In this document: positions 9,486 through 17,000 of the stretch, piece after piece
Layout: every line of letters starts with the position of its first letter
Position numbering within the stretch: the first letter of the stretch is position 1
Source of the DNA: an uncultured Coprococcus sp.
Lineage (GTDB): Bacteria > Bacillota > Clostridia > Lachnospirales > Lachnospiraceae
DNA length: 64,000 nucleotides
Direction: 5' to 3'
Assembly (NCBI GenBank): GCA_947626675.1
Contig: CANQTC010000001.1
Location: 1 to 64,000 of the forward strand
Program-made: the position numbers and the translations under genes
The notes under the pieces: generated by a model
What the model was told of the DNA's origin: nothing
Databases searched by the model: none
The model's input: the letters and a program-made list of their open reading frames with translations, nothing else

Positions 9486-10247
9486 ATGAGTCAACTGGAG
9501 ATTAATGATAACGTAATAAAAAAGAAGCGCTTTTTGAATGATAGAAATATTCGTGATATTGTAATAGGAGAAAATACTTCTATCATTGAAGATTGGGCAT
9601 TTGCAGGATGTCAGAACCTAAGGCGTGTAACATTAAAAAATAAAAATGCCGTTCTTGGCAAAGACGTTTTTTTAAACTGTAACAATTTAAAGGAAATTGT
9701 CATGGAAAACAGTAGTTCTTTAAAGCGATTGCTTGTTTATGCCTTTACAGTTTTTGACAATGCAGAATTAAGAAAGTTATCATTTGCAGGGCAGGACTCT
9801 TATATGAAAATGTTTGACCAAACCTTGATGCGTTTTTTAAAGCAGGATGATATGGAGGGATTTTCCCCGTTTTTAGCAGGCGGTGAAGAAGATTATGAGG
9901 ATGAAGAAAACAGTCCTGAATATTACCGGGCAAAAATCAAAAGGGAAAAATGTGAAATCCTTACAGAACGTATGCTTGTGGAGAAGGAATATCCGTTGTC
10001 TGAACAAGACAGAGAATACGGTATTACATATTTGCAGACAACAGATGAAGCATATGAACTGCTTTTCGGTGAAGAAGATTTGTTTTATGAGCGGTTTCTT
10101 TTATATGACAGACTTGGTTTGCTTTCTTTTGTAAGAATACAGGGATTGCTTCAAAAAATGCCTGAATCGATGGTAGAGGCAAGGGCGCTGCTGCTTCGGA
10201 AAAAGGATGATATCAATACAGATATATTTACGATGTATGATTTATAA
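9486..10247 (+). CDS. BspA-type leucine-rich-repeat protein
   Basis: 253 residues. The first ~90 hold three BspA/LRR_5-type repeats (IVIGENTSIIEDWAFAGC, VTLKNKNAVLGKDVFLNC, IVMENSSSLKRLLVYAF). The rest is acidic and helical with no recognised domain. There is no signal peptide or membrane segment, so it is probably cytoplasmic, unlike surface BspA proteins. The ribosome binding site is weak. Its stop codon is only six bases before the first BlaI-type palindrome; membership in that circuit is not indicated, since it lies upstream of the promoter. Confidence 0.65.
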   Translation: MSQLEINDNVIKKKRFLNDRNIRDIVIGENTSIIEDWAFAGCQNLRRVTLKNKNAVLGKDVFLNCNNLKEIVMENSSSLKRLLVYAFTVFDNAELRKLSFAGQDSYMKMFDQTLMRFLKQDDMEGFSPFLAGGEEDYEDEENSPEYYRAKIKREKCEILTERMLVEKEYPLSEQDREYGITYLQTTDEAYELLFGEEDLFYERFLLYDRLGLLSFVRIQGLLQKMPESMVEARALLLRKKDDINTDIFTMYDL

Positions 10248-10253
10248 ATTCAG

Positions 10254-10295
10254 CTTGACACCTAAATATTACTGATGTAATATTTAGGTGTCAAG
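10254..10295. promoter_or_regulatory. Perfect 19-4-19 palindrome containing the PBP promoter; BlaI/MecI-type operator 1
   Basis: CTTGACACCTAAATATTAC, loop TGAT, and its exact reverse complement. The core ATTAC-TGAT-GTAAT resembles BlaI/MecI operators. TTGACA (10255-10260), a 17-base spacer and TAATAT (10278-10283) lie wholly inside it, so repressor binding would cover the promoter. Because the dyad is perfect, the complementary strand has the same TTGACA-N17-TAATAT, directed toward the leucine-rich-repeat gene. Confidence 0.8.
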
Positions 10296-10311
10296 ATAAT
10301 AAAACATATTT

Positions 10312-10353
10312 TTTTACTCGCAAATCTTACATATGTAAGATTTGCGAGTAAAA
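10312..10353. promoter_or_regulatory. Second perfect 19-4-19 palindrome; BlaI/MecI-type operator 2
   Basis: TTTTACTCGCAAATCTTAC, loop ATAT, and its exact reverse complement. The centre TCTTACATATGTAAGA is very close to classical Bacillus/Staphylococcus bla-mec operators. TTTACT-N17-TAAGAT inside it could act as a second, weaker promoter. It lies 16 bases after operator 1 and inside the transcript expected from the first promoter, where it would form a 19-bp RNA hairpin. The PBP start is 54 bases downstream. Confidence 0.8.
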
Positions 10354-10407: not shown

Positions 10408-12540
10408 ATGAAAAGAAGATATATTATGAAAGAAAAAAGCAGGCATAAGCAAAAAAGAAATTGGGAAAAGATTATACTGCTTATAATTATTGCTATGGGA
10501 ATTGCTGTGATAGGTGTAGTCAAAGTATGCGGAAAGATAAACAGGGATGTTGTACGGACTTCGCCGGAAGAGCTTCTTGTTGATTATATGAACCACATTC
10601 CGAAACAGGAATATGAAGAAATGTATGCAATGTTAGATATTGAGGCATCGGATAATATCAGTAAAGAAGATTTTATCAAACGAAATTCAGCCATTTATGA
10701 AGGCATAGACATGAAAAATATGAAACTTGAGATTATTTCATATGATGAGAAAGAAAAAGCTGTGACCTATTATACCTCATTTGATACAGTTGCCGGAAAT
10801 ATTAGTTTTAAGAATGTAGCTGTATTTCAGGAGAATGAAACAGATTACAAACTGGTATGGCAGGATTCTTTGATATTTCCGGATTTATGTGCTACAGATA
10901 ATGTGAAGGTTTCTGTAACACAGGCGAAAAGAGGGGAGATTTTGGATAGAAACGGACGTGTTCTGGCAGGGGCGGGAATCGCATCTTCTGTTGGGATTGT
11001 TCCGAAAAAACTGAAAAATAGAGAGAAATCAATTAAAAAAATAGCAGAATTATTAGAAATAGACACCCAAACGATTGAAGAAAAACTATCAGCACAGTGG
11101 GTAGATGATGAGTCCTTTGTACCAATTATGACAGTTCCCAAGATAAAAGAGATAGAATTCATACGTTCAGAAACGGATAATGATATTTCAAAAGAAAAAG
11201 AACGTCAGGACAAATTAATGGAAATACCGGGTATTATGATATCTGATACGGAGATACGGGAATATCCCCTCGGCGAAGCGGCCGCACATTTGATAGGATA
11301 TGTGGCGAGTGTGGATTCGGATGATTTAAAAGAACATGCAGATGAGGGGTACACAGTGGGAAGTGTAATTGGAAGAAGCGGAATAGAAGCCTTGTTTGAA
11401 GAAAGACTAAGAGGAAGAAATGGATATCGGATTTATATTGCAGATATAACAGGTAAAGTGAAAAAAGAACTTGCCTGTATACCAGTATTACATCGGCAGA
11501 ATGTACAGTTGACGATAGATGCAAATCTACAGACCTATATTTATGAGCAATTTAAAACGGATAAAGGATGTTCTGTCGCTATCAATCAGTATACCGGAGA
11601 GGTACTCGCTTTGGTGAGTACGCCATCTTATGATAATAATGATTTCATTATGGGGTTATCTGATGCACAATGGACTGAATTAAATGAAGATGAGAATAAG
11701 CCGCTGTATAATCGGTTCAGGCAGGTATGGTGTCCCGGTTCGACATTGAAGCCTGTTGTTGCTGCAATCGGGTTAGAATCGGAAGCCATCGACCCGCTGG
11801 AGGACTATGGTAATGAAGGTGTAAGCTGGCAAAAGGATGAATCATGGGGTTCATATTATATAACAACACTTCATACCTATACGCCTGTTATTTTGGAAAA
11901 TGCATTGATTTATTCTGATAATATTTATTTTGCAAAAGCAGCATTACGGATTGGCGCAAAAGATATGGAAGAATATTTGATGCGGCTTGGCTTTAATAAA
12001 GACTTACCATTTGAGATGGATATGGAAAAGTCACAGTATTCCAATACAGAAAATATTGAAACAGAAATACAATTAGCAGATAGTGGATATGGACAGGGGG
12101 AAATTTTGGTAAATCCATTGCATATAGCGTGTATTTATTCAGCGTTTTGCAATGAAGGAAATATGATAAAACCTCGTTTGCTATATCAGAAAGATGTACC
12201 TGCGGAATATTGGATAAAAGGGGCATTTAAAAAAGAAGTCGTAAGCAGGGTACAGGAGGGCATGAAAAAGGTTGTAAGTAATTCCGATGGAACAGGATAT
12301 GCAGCATATCGTGATGATGTTGCCTTAGCAGGAAAAACCGGAACAGCAGAAATTAAAACATCAAAGGACGATGATTTGGGTACGGAATTAGGGTGGTTTG
12401 CCATTTTTACTACAGAAAAAACAGTACAATCTCCAATTCTGCTTGTCAGTATGGTAGAAGATGTAAAAGGGAGAGGAGGAAGTGGTTATGTTGTGGAAAA
12501 GGATAAAAAGATTTTGGAAGCTTGGTTTCATCGTAATTGA
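10408..12540 (+). CDS. MecA/PBP2a-like class B penicillin-binding transpeptidase
   Basis: 710 residues: a short basic cytoplasmic tail, one membrane anchor (~residues 20-42), a MecA_N/NTF2-like domain (~48-165), a PBP dimerisation region starting at KRGEILDRNG, and a transpeptidase domain. Active-site motifs are complete: STLK with Ser445, SDN at 503, KTGT from Lys643. Resemblance to staphylococcal PBP2a is close over long stretches (ALVSTPSYD, WQKDESWG, LADSGYGQGEILVNP). Class B enzymes of this type cross-link peptidoglycan and can have low beta-lactam affinity; resistance itself is inferred, not shown. GGGGAAAGG precedes the ATG. Two BlaI-type palindromes sit just upstream, so the gene is probably beta-lactam inducible. 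Its 3' end overlaps the lipoprotein gene. Confidence 0.9.
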   Translation: MKRRYIMKEKSRHKQKRNWEKIILLIIIAMGIAVIGVVKVCGKINRDVVRTSPEELLVDYMNHIPKQEYEEMYAMLDIEASDNISKEDFIKRNSAIYEGIDMKNMKLEIISYDEKEKAVTYYTSFDTVAGNISFKNVAVFQENETDYKLVWQDSLIFPDLCATDNVKVSVTQAKRGEILDRNGRVLAGAGIASSVGIVPKKLKNREKSIKKIAELLEIDTQTIEEKLSAQWVDDESFVPIMTVPKIKEIEFIRSETDNDISKEKERQDKLMEIPGIMISDTEIREYPLGEAAAHLIGYVASVDSDDLKEHADEGYTVGSVIGRSGIEALFEERLRGRNGYRIYIADITGKVKKELACIPVLHRQNVQLTIDANLQTYIYEQFKTDKGCSVAINQYTGEVLALVSTPSYDNNDFIMGLSDAQWTELNEDENKPLYNRFRQVWCPGSTLKPVVAAIGLESEAIDPLEDYGNEGVSWQKDESWGSYYITTLHTYTPVILENALIYSDNIYFAKAALRIGAKDMEEYLMRLGFNKDLPFEMDMEKSQYSNTENIETEIQLADSGYGQGEILVNPLHIACIYSAFCNEGNMIKPRLLYQKDVPAEYWIKGAFKKEVVSRVQEGMKKVVSNSDGTGYAAYRDDVALAGKTGTAEIKTSKDDDLGTELGWFAIFTTEKTVQSPILLVSMVEDVKGRGGSGYVVEKDKKILEAWFHRN

Positions 12541-14731
12541 GGCATTTATCGTATTAAGTGTTTTGGGCTGCAAGGATGACAGGAAAACAAAAAATGCTGT
12601 GAAAGACGAAAGCAAAATACAAATTTCACAGGCGGATGAACAAAGAAAAGCAGAAAAGGTGATAGAATGCTGCTATCAGAATTATAAAGAAGCAATGGAA
12701 GAAGACAGCATTGCCGAATTGGAAGTCATACGCAGTATCGTAAATCAATTAGGAGAAAATGGTTATGCGGCTGTTGACAGTAAAAATCAAATCGATATGA
12801 CTAATGCAGACCAGGTAATATTGTTTTGTGAAAAGGCGGACAAGAAAGAAGAAGCAGCGCTTACAATAATAGAAGTTACATATTTGGGAGAATTTATAAA
12901 ATATGATTTGAATACCAAGTATGGGAATGTCGATATCGTCAGAAGTTATTATCGATATGAAAATGGGAATATGAAGAATGTGATTACGGATTATTATCCG
13001 GCAGATGATTGGAACTATACAGAAGATGGATATCTGATGTTTTCAGGAGTTCGGGATTCTGATGACTCCTATGTACTTACGTTAGATGAAGCAGAAGAGC
13101 ATACGGCCTTTCGGGTACTGCCATTAGATGAAACATGCAGGACACTCACCAGACAGTATTTGATACCCTTTGGTTATGAATATAATAATATGTTTTTGGT
13201 TGATTGGAATGAGGACGATTTCGGAGAACTAAACTTTTATGATTTGTATGACATTTTGTATCCTAAAATAAACGCACAGAGCATTCCGTATACAGCAGAT
13301 GAAAATTTGGGTGTTGGCGCAGTTTACAGGATACCAAAAGCTGAATTTGAGCAGGTTATTATGAGCTATTTCAATATTGACAGTGAAACACTTCAGTCAA
13401 AGACAATGTATCATCCTGAGGATGAAACTTATGAATACAGGCCCAGAGGATTTTATGAAACAGAGTATCCTTATTATCCATATCCTGAAGTAGTTCATTA
13501 TACAGAAAATAGCGATGGAACCATAACGCTTATTGTTAATGTTGTATTTCCTCATGCAGACATTTCTAAAGTATATACCCATGAGGTTGTGGTTCGCCTT
13601 TTAGATGGCGGAGGCGTGCAGTATGTATCAAACCGGATATTATCTTCAGTGAAGGATTACGAAAAAAACTGGTATAAGCCGCGTTTAACAGAAGAAGAAT
13701 GGAAAGAAATATATGAGGGGTATCATATTCCGATTGATGATATGGAAAGAGAAGAAGCGGAAGCGGATTGTCAGAGAGTGATGGAAGAAGGGAAAGTAAA
13801 CGAAACAGAATGTCTTGTTCATACAGGTGTTCCGTATTCTAATATGGAACACTATGAGATTATGGATGATTTCCTGAAAAACTGCCTTAATGGGAAAAGT
13901 GGTTTGGCAGTAGTATATGAAATTTATTCTGATGGCGGTATAGGAAGAAAAAAATATATTTACGACGGCATAAATATGTACCTCTTAGGGATAAATGCAG
14001 TTTGGAATAAAGAGAATAGGGTAGAAATTGCATATATATCCTACACAAGAATAAAGGACTGGAAATATACGGATAAAGGGTGGTTTGGTTATGAATTATG
14101 TGTTCCAAAACCACCGGAGGTTACGGAAATTGTTGATGGAAGCAGTCTGATAAGAATAAAGCCAATGACCGAAGAAGAACAGGAACTGTCTAAAAGATGT
14201 GTGTATGGGTTAGGGTATCAGGGAAATAATCTATTGTGTTCTGACTGGAATGAAGATAATATGGAAAAACTGGATTATAATGGAATGTACGAATATTTGT
14301 ATGAGATGAAATATGGAGAAAAAATGAATCCTGAGAAATACTCTGATGGAATACCAAAAGAAGAATTTGAAAATCTGATTATGGAATATCTTCCGATAAC
14401 GGCGGAAGAGCTACAGGCGTATGCTGTGTTTGATGAGGGCAGTCAGACTTATGAATGGGTTCGTTTGGGATGTTGTAACTATGCGCCAACCTTTTTTGGA
14501 ACTTCTTTGCCTGAGGTTACCCATATAAAAGAAAATGAAGACGGAACGGTTACCTTAACAGTAGAAGCAGTATGTGATATGGTGTTGTGTGATGATGCGG
14601 TTATTACATCGGCGCTTGTTGTAAAATTTGCTGATGACGGCAGTTTCCGGTATCTCGGAAATAAAATTTTGGATAATGGAAAGGAACACATACCGGACTA
14701 TCAATACCGCATTGTGAATGAAGAGAAATAA
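12488..14731 (+). CDS. Lipoprotein with duplicated domain, coupled to the PBP (DUF6070-like)
   Basis: About 747 residues starting at ATG 12488, preceded by GGGAGAGGAGG within the PBP coding sequence; GTG 12482 is an alternative start. An N-terminal helix ends in lipobox LSVLGC, so it should be lipid-anchored on the outer face. Two homologous halves each run: FLVDWNEDDFGELNFYDLY / LCSDWNEDNMEKLDYNGMY, IPKAEFEQVIMSYFNI / IPKEEFENLIMEYLPI, then PEVVHYTENSDGTITL / PEVTHIKENEDGTVTL. I recognise no enzyme motif; DUF6070 is my best guess. The 53-base overlap with the PBP implies translational coupling and shared induction, so a role at the PBP or in sensing cell-wall stress is plausible but inferred. 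Confidence 0.7.
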   Translation: MLWKRIKRFWKLGFIVIEAFIVLSVLGCKDDRKTKNAVKDESKIQISQADEQRKAEKVIECCYQNYKEAMEEDSIAELEVIRSIVNQLGENGYAAVDSKNQIDMTNADQVILFCEKADKKEEAALTIIEVTYLGEFIKYDLNTKYGNVDIVRSYYRYENGNMKNVITDYYPADDWNYTEDGYLMFSGVRDSDDSYVLTLDEAEEHTAFRVLPLDETCRTLTRQYLIPFGYEYNNMFLVDWNEDDFGELNFYDLYDILYPKINAQSIPYTADENLGVGAVYRIPKAEFEQVIMSYFNIDSETLQSKTMYHPEDETYEYRPRGFYETEYPYYPYPEVVHYTENSDGTITLIVNVVFPHADISKVYTHEVVVRLLDGGGVQYVSNRILSSVKDYEKNWYKPRLTEEEWKEIYEGYHIPIDDMEREEAEADCQRVMEEGKVNETECLVHTGVPYSNMEHYEIMDDFLKNCLNGKSGLAVVYEIYSDGGIGRKKYIYDGINMYLLGINAVWNKENRVEIAYISYTRIKDWKYTDKGWFGYELCVPKPPEVTEIVDGSSLIRIKPMTEEEQELSKRCVYGLGYQGNNLLCSDWNEDNMEKLDYNGMYEYLYEMKYGEKMNPEKYSDGIPKEEFENLIMEYLPITAEELQAYAVFDEGSQTYEWVRLGCCNYAPTFFGTSLPEVTHIKENEDGTVTLTVEAVCDMVLCDDAVITSALVVKFADDGSFRYLGNKILDNGKEHIPDYQYRIVNEEK

Positions 14732-14765: not shown

Positions 14766-16571
14766 CTATTTCCAAATATTCATATCAGACAATATAGACA
14801 TGGTTATTTCCGTTGCATGACTTCCATTTGCATTTGCGTCTGCTTTAATATTGGTTGCAAAAAAGTATGTATTATGCTCACTTTCCACATATCCTATAAA
14901 CCATCCATTGATATCCTGACCATCGATACAGCCTGTTCCTGTTTTTCCATAAAGTGTTCCTGTTTCAGAAGAGGAAAGACAAATGGATTTTTGAACTTCG
15001 TTGATATTTTTTATATCAAAGCCGAAGCGGTTGTCATGAAGCTTTCTTAAAAGCGCAACCTGTTCTATCGGGGAAATTTTTAAAGAGCCTTCCAGCCAAT
15101 AGGCAGACAAATCGCCGCTGATAGTTTGATTACCATATTCGATTTCCTGAAGGTAATGATTGAGGCAGTCCATTCCAAGCTGTTTATCCATTTCCTGAAA
15201 ATACCAACTGACAGAATAGTACATTGCGGACTGCAAGGTCTGGTCAGCATTCCATGATTCAAATGGATAAAATTCTTTATCCCAATAGAGCAGGGAATGT
15301 TCAGGGGTGATAACGCCTTTTTCCAAAGCAAATAAAGCATCATAAATTTTATAAGTAGAGTTTGGAGAAACGCGCAGCGTTGCCTGTTCCATATTGTAGA
15401 TGCTCCAGGCATCTTTTTTCAAATCATATAAAACAAAGCTTCCCTCATATCCATTAAAGTATGCCGAAAAATCTGCATAAGAAATATTCTCAGAAGAAGA
15501 CTTCCATTGATAGTGGTTATCCTCTGCTGCATATGTGGAAATGAAAGGAATAAATCCTAAGGTAAGTGCAGTTGTCAGCATAAATGTAAGTAAGCCTTTT
15601 AACTTTTTGCAGAATGTCGGCCTTTTATAAGATGCGATATTGATGATACGTTGTGTTATCTGTTTTTTCTTTCCACCAATTCCGGCGGCGAATGGAAAAG
15701 TCATAAGCGACACTTTTTCTGCAAAGTTAATTAATGTACTTCCATAATCTGTATAGAGCTCTTCGTCAAGCATATTTAAAACGGAAGTGTCACATGCAAT
15801 TTCTCTGTCATTGTGCATTTCTTTTAGTGCATACCAAATAAATGGATTAAACCAGTAAATGCTCCCGGCTAAATTCATCAAATAGATAATAATCATATCT
15901 TTGTGTTTATAATGCTGTAGTTCATGTAATAGCATGTATCGTATTGCATTTTCATCATAATCTGAGATTAAATGAATAGGCAGATAAATGCATGGCTTCA
16001 AGATTCCCACAATGACAGGTGATTTCAGAAATGCAGTACTGTATACAGGAATATTTTTTGAAATTTCCATTTCTTCCAGACAGCAATCATATAATCTGCG
16101 GACATCCGAATTTTGAAGCGGAAGTGCAGATTTTTTTAATTTGCGTAAATGCGCAGATGATTTTATCATGCATATCATCATTACCAGTATGCCAACAAGC
16201 CATATTCCACCCAAAATAAATCCGATAACAGTGATAACAGGTTGTGATTTAGAACTGACGGAAACAGCAAAATCATGCATCCAGTCCGTAGCGTTAATCA
16301 GGTTTGGGTTAGCAAAGTTTTCTGTAATATTTTCTGTATTTGAAAAAGTGGAATTTTTCAAATTGGCAAGCCATAGAAATATCTGCGGAAATCCGGTTTG
16401 GTGCATTGGGATGAAAGGGATTGTCAACATAAAAAGCAGCAGAAACCACAGATGATACTTCATCCGGTTGGACAGAGTATTTTTAAATAGCCGTTTCGTC
16501 ACCAGAAGGAGCAGAATGATAACACTGAGAAATATATTGCATATTAGAAAATGTATCATAAAATCAGCCAT
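14766..16571 (-). CDS. blaR1: BlaR1/MecR1-type beta-lactam sensor metalloprotease
   Basis: 601 residues with both halves intact. The N-terminal M56 part has several membrane helices and zinc-protease motif HELQH (from residue 216), with the third ligand expected in NDREIACD. The C-terminal extracellular sensor resembles class D beta-lactamases: STYK with the acylated Ser405, and KTGTG at about 543. In the family, acylation of this serine by a beta-lactam switches on the protease, leading to loss of BlaI repression. GGAGG precedes the ATG. It is second in a leftward operon with blaI, 15 bases after it, and convergent with the PBP-lipoprotein operon. Confidence 0.92.
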   Translation of the reverse strand: MADFMIHFLICNIFLSVIILLLLVTKRLFKNTLSNRMKYHLWFLLLFMLTIPFIPMHQTGFPQIFLWLANLKNSTFSNTENITENFANPNLINATDWMHDFAVSVSSKSQPVITVIGFILGGIWLVGILVMMICMIKSSAHLRKLKKSALPLQNSDVRRLYDCCLEEMEISKNIPVYSTAFLKSPVIVGILKPCIYLPIHLISDYDENAIRYMLLHELQHYKHKDMIIIYLMNLAGSIYWFNPFIWYALKEMHNDREIACDTSVLNMLDEELYTDYGSTLINFAEKVSLMTFPFAAGIGGKKKQITQRIINIASYKRPTFCKKLKGLLTFMLTTALTLGFIPFISTYAAEDNHYQWKSSSENISYADFSAYFNGYEGSFVLYDLKKDAWSIYNMEQATLRVSPNSTYKIYDALFALEKGVITPEHSLLYWDKEFYPFESWNADQTLQSAMYYSVSWYFQEMDKQLGMDCLNHYLQEIEYGNQTISGDLSAYWLEGSLKISPIEQVALLRKLHDNRFGFDIKNINEVQKSICLSSSETGTLYGKTGTGCIDGQDINGWFIGYVESEHNTYFFATNIKADANANGSHATEITMSILSDMNIWK

Positions 16572-16586
16572 ATTCTAAACCTCCGT

Positions 16587-16964
16587 TTATTTGTTTTGTT
16601 TTTTTGCAAGAAGAGAACGTAAATGTTCTATTTCTGTTTCTGATAGCTGGTCGTTTTCTATATATGCAGACAACATCGCAGTTATATCGCCGCCATAATA
16701 ACGATTTAAAAAGGAGCTGCTTTCCTGACCGATATATTCATTTTCTTTTACCAAAGGAGTATAAACAAATACGCGGCTCTGTTTTTCGTAAGAGAGCACC
16801 CCTTTGGTAACAAGACGTTTAATCAACGTCTGTATTGTTTTCGGACTCCATGTTGTAGTTTGTACTAATTTCTCTGTTATTTCATTTGTGCTGATAGGCG
16901 CATGTTTCCATACGATTTTCATAACTTCAAATTCAGCTTCGGAAATTTGCGGTAATGCAGTCAT
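16587..16964 (-). CDS. blaI: BlaI/MecI-family transcriptional repressor
   Basis: 125 residues with an N-terminal winged helix (ISEAEFEVMKIVWKHAPISTNEIT, then WSPKTIQTLIKRLVTKGVL) and the C-terminal dimerisation helices of BlaI/MecI. Dimers bind TTAC/GTAA-type dyads and are inactivated when BlaR1 senses a beta-lactam. At the position of the N-F bond cut in staphylococcal BlaI/MecI, this protein aligns as A-Y (TAMLSAYIEND), by eye. First gene of blaI-blaR1, with a GGGGG-containing ribosome binding site and an operator-like dyad overlapping its 5' leader, suggesting autoregulation. Confidence 0.92.
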   Translation of the reverse strand: MTALPQISEAEFEVMKIVWKHAPISTNEITEKLVQTTTWSPKTIQTLIKRLVTKGVLSYEKQSRVFVYTPLVKENEYIGQESSSFLNRYYGGDITAMLSAYIENDQLSETEIEHLRSLLAKKQNK

Positions 16965-16977
16965 ATAAAACCCCCAT

Positions 16978-17000
16978 TAATCTTACAACTGTAATAAATA
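16978..17000. promoter_or_regulatory. BlaI-type operator 3 in the blaI leader
   Basis: Imperfect dyad around CTTAC-AACT-GTAAT (core TTACAACTGTAA at 16983-16994). It shares TTAC-N4-GTAA with both operators at the PBP promoter. It lies just downstream of the leftward -10 box at 17002-17007 and 14 bases before the blaI start, where repressor would block transcription initiation. Confidence 0.7.

Follow-up and report, generated by a model that had tools for sequence, protein, structure and literature searches.

Putative tandem BlaI operators with perfect long arms upstream of a PBP2a-like gene in an uncultured Coprococcus

Two adjacent perfect palindromes, P1 and P2, lie upstream of a penicillin-binding protein (PBP) gene in the 64,000-nucleotide stretch of uncultured Coprococcus DNA analysed here (the window). 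They would act as tandem BlaI operators controlling a beta-lactam-resistant, inducible PBP together with a DUF6070 lipoprotein, and their long arms are most likely a product of template switching, a reading to which we give a probability of about 75%. Without a beta-lactam, one BlaI dimer on P1 would cover the -35 and -10 elements of the promoter and a second dimer on P2 would stand in the way of RNA polymerase as it moves through the leader. Sensing of a beta-lactam by BlaR1 would inactivate BlaI and allow the genes to be expressed. For BlaI and the related CopY, it has been proposed that two operators block both access to the promoter and elongation (PMC7253601). For P1 and P2, the predicted control by BlaI and BlaR1 follows from homology and conserved anatomy. 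The control region is of a known kind, described here for the first time for this PBP module, and the perfect symmetry of both operators, which is rare, is best understood as a trace left by mutation. The analysis documents a predicted inducible PBP2a-like module (PBP, DUF6070, blaR1-blaI and paired operators) as common among Lachnospiraceae of the gut. A further result is a clean natural case of functional operators seemingly perfected by template switching; perfect symmetry is thus no sure sign of stronger binding.

Anatomy of the palindromes and the PBP promoter

P1 (10254-10295) has 19-nt arms (10254-10272 and 10277-10295) that are 100% complementary around a TGAT loop, CTTGACACCTAAATATTAC-TGAT-GTAATATTTAGGTGTCAAG. 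P2 (10312-10353) has 21-nt arms (10312-10332 and 10333-10353), also 100% complementary and with no loop, TTTTACTCGCAAATCTTACAT-ATGTAAGATTTGCGAGTAAAA, and is perfect across all 42 bp. The two are separated by 16 nt (10296-10311). The initial annotation had described a pair of 42-bp dyads of 19-4-19 form; its positions, length and gap stand, but P2 is a 21-0-21 palindrome that takes the 19-4-19 form only when folded as a hairpin. The TTAC-N4-GTAA core attributed to both sites was located as TTAC-TGAT-GTAA in P1 (TTACTGATGTAA, 10269-10280) and TTAC-ATAT-GTAA in P2 (TTACATATGTAA, 10327-10338). At position 7 of the dyad P1 has A/A and P2 has C/C.

P1 overlaps the predicted PBP promoter, with a plus-strand -35 TTGACA at 10255-10260, kept in relatives as TTGAC, and a -10 TAATAT at 10278-10283, a hexamer identical in 43 of 56 promoter boxes. 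As the annotation had it, a pattern search finds TTGACA-17-TAATAT on both strands of P1; the mirrored minus-strand copy (10266-10294) is not conserved and its hexamers are probably a by-product of arm copying. The TTTACT (10313-10318) and TAAGAT (10336-10341) it placed 17 bp apart inside P2 can be read straight from the sequence. P2 lies within the transcribed leader and would begin ~20 nt downstream of the predicted transcription start, with a plus-strand T7 tract at its 5' edge (10309-10315). A tract of T6 or longer marks 53 of 61 second boxes; a T6-T7 tract occurs in just one of 56 promoter boxes. Upstream, a small LRR_5 (BspA-type) gene (9486-10247) runs in the same direction and ends 6 bp before P1, with no terminator evident ahead of the operator pair.

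Base composition predicts ~6e-6 perfect inverted repeats per 64 kb with arms of at least 19 and loops of at most 10. Besides P1 and P2, four others were present in the 424 kb of genome surveyed, and lone long inverted repeats are not very rare in this genome. A chance origin is ruled out for P1 and P2, which lie together within 100 bp and carry the same rare core: exact AATNTTACNNNNGTAANATT (0 mismatches) occurs twice in the 2.3-Mb genome, in P1 and P2, and never in a reversed control. The density of perfect inverted repeats with arms of at least 19 is 1.4 per 100 kb here (0.9 without P1 and P2); three other family genomes have 1.5 per 100 kb, and a genus-mate has none in 160 kb. A genome-wide bias to long palindromes was rejected on this match with other family genomes. 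Long perfect inverted repeats are not abundant in the genome at large, and nothing therefore points to a mutator trait acting throughout it. A phage or plasmid source of the leader was also discarded, with no match among viral contigs or plasmids.

The PBP module and its predicted regulon

The gene behind P2 (10408-12540, plus strand) encodes a class B PBP of PBP2a / PBP4(5)-like type with MecA_N, PBP_dimer and Transpeptidase domains. Its nearest curated models are PBP4(5) of enterococci (NF051842, score 563.2, cut-off 700) and PBP2a (NF000237, 419.8, cut-off 750), both below cut-off, and its best solved-structure relatives are entries named PBP3 and PBP2a. Judged from its sequence, the protein is related to the PBP2a (mecA) family proper and is not a member by the curated cut-offs. 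The product of the overlapping plus-strand gene that follows (12482-14731) has a lipobox-like start (VLSVLGC, read from the sequence) and two DUF6070 domains in tandem. Convergent to these two genes are blaR1 (14766-16571, minus strand), with an M56 metalloprotease and a penicillin-sensor domain and a blaR1_generic match above the NCBIfam cut-off, and the Penicillinase_R repressor gene blaI (16587-16964, minus strand). The operator of blaI-blaR1 (16979-16998; box TTACAACTGTAA at 16983-16994) retains the usual A/C asymmetry at position 7.

P1, P2 and the blaI box are the only three good operator sites in the whole genome, which makes the regulon local; in a genome search with AATNTTACNNNNGTAANATT the blaI box appears at two mismatches, among the background. 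P1 and P2 carry features of BlaI-type operators: a TTAC-N4-GTAA (TACA/TGTA-type) dyad with AT-rich flanks, a location that in P1 spans the promoter of a PBP2a/PBP4(5)-like gene, and cognate blaI and blaR1 genes encoded nearby. They depart from the usual position-7 asymmetry and short imperfect symmetry, with A/A, C/C and arms of up to 21. The asymmetry is a common property of the operator family and not a defining requirement, with 25 of 134 sites being A/A or C/C.

The closest alignment of this BlaI is to BlaI of Bacillus licheniformis, and both have TWSPKTIQT in the DNA-binding domain. SSFLNR (Ser-Phe) in this BlaI aligns to the scissile Asn-Phe of MecI (KNFINK), and given Ser-Phe at that position, cleavage by BlaR1 may differ. 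The bla operators OP1-OP3 of B. licheniformis 749/I (BlaI-BlaR1, blaP) share with P1 and P2 the repressor family, the DNA-binding helix sequence and the use of several operators per control region. OP1 and P2 also have a 17-nt identity, with AAATCTTACATATGTAA in the P2 core region identical to the OP1 probe. OP1 (GCATTTAAATCTTACATATGTAATACTTTC) also has a C/A asymmetry at position 7 (PMC3305447). It differs from P1 and P2 in that asymmetry and in having no extended arms, and in B. licheniformis the target is a beta-lactamase and the genes form a divergon. In the mec operator of Staphylococcus aureus and mecD of Macrococcus caseolyticus (MecI-MecR1), too, the promoter of a PBP2a-family gene is covered by a repressor site, with the consensus [A/G]NATTACA[A/T]NTGTA[A/G][T/G]NT (PMC5341023). 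In mec/mecD, however, one operator serves a divergent promoter pair, whereas here two boxes with longer arms precede the PBP gene and the convergent blaR1-blaI genes have their own operator.

DUF6070 (PF19546) lipoprotein genes are regularly found behind BlaI-type operators, with or without a PBP, as in the window (12482-14731) and at loci L109 (1060-3315), L110 and L214 (2399-3577). DUF6070 was not named in the literature searched. The predicted fold of one DUF6070 domain is confident (pLDDT 86.7); compared with solved structures, the model had no significant match and so gave no pointer to the regulated function; the weak matches include several NTF2-like proteins.

Leader plan and operator symmetry in relatives

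The PBP is present in 56 of 299 family genomes (E <= 1e-60), and 57 PBP loci were taken from named genomes, nearly all Lachnospiraceae. Their leaders follow one plan: TTGAC, an operator whose right half gives the -10 hexamer, then a second operator after a T-tract, and in some a third box. The window has the same order (-35, operator, -10, T-tract, second operator, PBP, DUF6070, blaR1, blaI), and DUF6070 and blaR1-blaI lie downstream in this order in many loci where the sequence extends far enough. Box spacing is mostly 48-65 bp in relatives and 58 bp here, about 5.5 turns. Paired boxes before PBP genes in related genomes, which the initial annotation had proposed to look for, are thus conserved across Lachnospiraceae leaders. 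It had also made conservation of the palindromes among close relatives part of the test of its reading; the core and the pairing are conserved, but the 19-4-19 arms are not.

The arms were compared with those of relatives that share the PBP leader, which contributed 55 promoter boxes and 60 second boxes. At positions 8-11 of the promoter boxes symmetry stands at 0.87-0.98, against 0.11 at position 7 and 0.02-0.09 further out, at positions 16-18, and relatives' symmetry drops to background beyond about 11 bp from the centre. Relatives' boxes are therefore short and imperfect in their symmetry, as had been said of known BlaI dyads, and differ in this from P1 and P2. At position 7 they mostly have C on the left and A on the right (TCTTAC-N4-GTAATA); 11-13% of boxes are symmetric there, and more than 85% are asymmetric in both box classes. 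The A/C combination occurs in 93 of 134 distinct operator-like sites, a descriptive set and not a statistical sample, as it includes related sequences and a few chance matches. Boxes before blaI, including the window's own, have the same pair in the opposite orientation. In promoter boxes the C/A asymmetry is partly explained by a constraint: the TAATAT -10 has to stay on one side.

Perfect arms reaching at least 19 bp from the centre were found in four of the 134 sites: P1, P2, one in a genome of the same genus (G302) and one in another genus (G356). The G302 site precedes a lone DUF6070 gene, and its symmetry reaches at least 26 bp out from the centre. The G356 site also precedes DUF6070, and part of its -35 is likewise mirrored. 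Long perfect arms are not conserved and, among the relatives compared, are private to this genome's PBP leader, although a private feature may still have an effect. This PBP sits on a long branch (0.47), and no close relative has the same leader.

Origin of the long arms

The outer parts of the arms (positions 17-21) point to which side is new. On the left they agree with relatives at 4.91 of 5 positions in P1 (TTGAC) and 4.37 of 5 in P2 (the T-tract side); on the right agreement is 0.93 of 5 and 1.83 of 5, at shuffle level or below, which identifies the right outer arm as the new part at both sites. In P1 and P2 alike, this part reproduces the left outer arm exactly, as its reverse complement. 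Changes that cluster in one arm and make it complementary to the other, conserved arm are what is expected of a template switch, and the added length and perfection of the arms most likely arose by mutation, through template switching during replication (quasipalindrome correction). A BlaI site is a quasipalindrome of about nine pairs with a 4-nt loop between them and would be a natural substrate. The switch would have recopied the left arm into the right, along with the -35 hexamer of P1 and, in P2, the sequence on the T-tract side, and the extra symmetry would probably change regulation little.

In E. coli such events are known to turn quasipalindromes perfect (PMC7202029), and over the course of evolution they are known to give rise to perfect stems (PMC8794818). 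As in the E. coli lacZ reporters and rRNA stems, one arm has become the exact reverse complement of the other, but here the sites are natural repressor operators and the event is reconstructed by comparison, not observed, with ancestral right arms deduced from distant homologues. P1 has A/A at position 7, whereas most relatives have C on the left, so a single left-to-right copying is insufficient and would need a prior A or a second change; A/A at this position also occurs in two relatives' loci (L034 and L081). Template switching alone also has to account for two events at adjacent sites and for three of the four longest sites falling in one genus, and the adjacent double perfection and the clustering could hint at selection. 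A broader proposition, which we regard as possible but doubtful, is that repressor operators are repeatedly perfected by template switching, which copies neighbouring promoter or ribosome-binding-site elements into the opposite arm, overrides the conserved asymmetry of BlaI sites, gives rise to symmetrical promoters and strong hairpins in the leader, and so may alter the regulation of beta-lactam resistance.

Selection for longer symmetry, giving tighter or cooperative BlaI binding and stricter repression as the initial annotation had suggested, would fit the perfecting of both boxes in one leader and the share of the longest-armed surveyed sites that belongs to this genus. We consider it unlikely, since the extended arms are absent from the 55 and 60 relative boxes: symmetry in all 115 stops ~11 bp from the centre, so there is no conserved symmetric contact outside, and the frequency of the C/A pair points to avoidance of symmetry at position 7, not to a preference for it. 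Box spacing is also variable, and fixed helical phasing for cooperativity was rejected on that ground. In the homologous CopY family, a full palindrome was bound near wild-type level and the affinity for two operators was not significantly higher (PMC7253601).

It is distinctly improbable that P2, and P1 in read-through RNA, was shaped as a leader RNA hairpin for mRNA stability or attenuation. The leader with the P2 stem folds at -31 kcal/mol (z = -4.4 vs shuffles), and the position of P2 just past the predicted start would place it in the transcript. But the 19-bp hairpin once suggested for this leader has no counterpart in relatives with the same leader, whose boxes fold weakly (median about -6, best about -13 kcal/mol) compared with -26 to -28 kcal/mol for the box hairpins here. 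An Rfam search gave nothing above threshold; the matches below it were all to miRNA/snoRNA entries, which any perfect hairpin would be expected to attract. An intrinsic terminator was rejected: the plus strand has no U-tract after either stem, and the minus-strand match is lax with an A-rich tail.

The perfect TTGACA-17-TAATAT on both strands of P1 had also suggested a symmetrical divergent promoter, firing leftward and antisense to the LRR_5 gene as well. We hold this to be very improbable: the mirrored -35 is absent at the mirrored place from all 55 relative promoter boxes, save a shifted GTCAA in L011, and the only thing to the left is the 3' end of a gene in the same orientation. Weak leftward activity arising as a by-product would be consistent with the template-switch reading. 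Scarcely credible is an assembly artefact in which the assembler mirrored the arms, for although the species is represented by one available assembly, P1 and P2 lie away from the end of a 282-kb contig, they are two different palindromes, the P1 loop is non-palindromic, and BlaI sites with long perfect arms are present in two other genomes.

The G302 palindrome (L089, 1004-1055) is perfect, with a 4-nt loop flanked by arms of at least 24 bp; the DUF6070 ribosome-binding site lies in the right arm, and a TATAAT comes from the left. Its genus-mate G299 (L090) carries the same palindrome with one mismatch. The PBP is missing from four genus-mates; in G299 and G302, DUF6070 directly follows two boxes, and blaR1-blaI is convergent to it.
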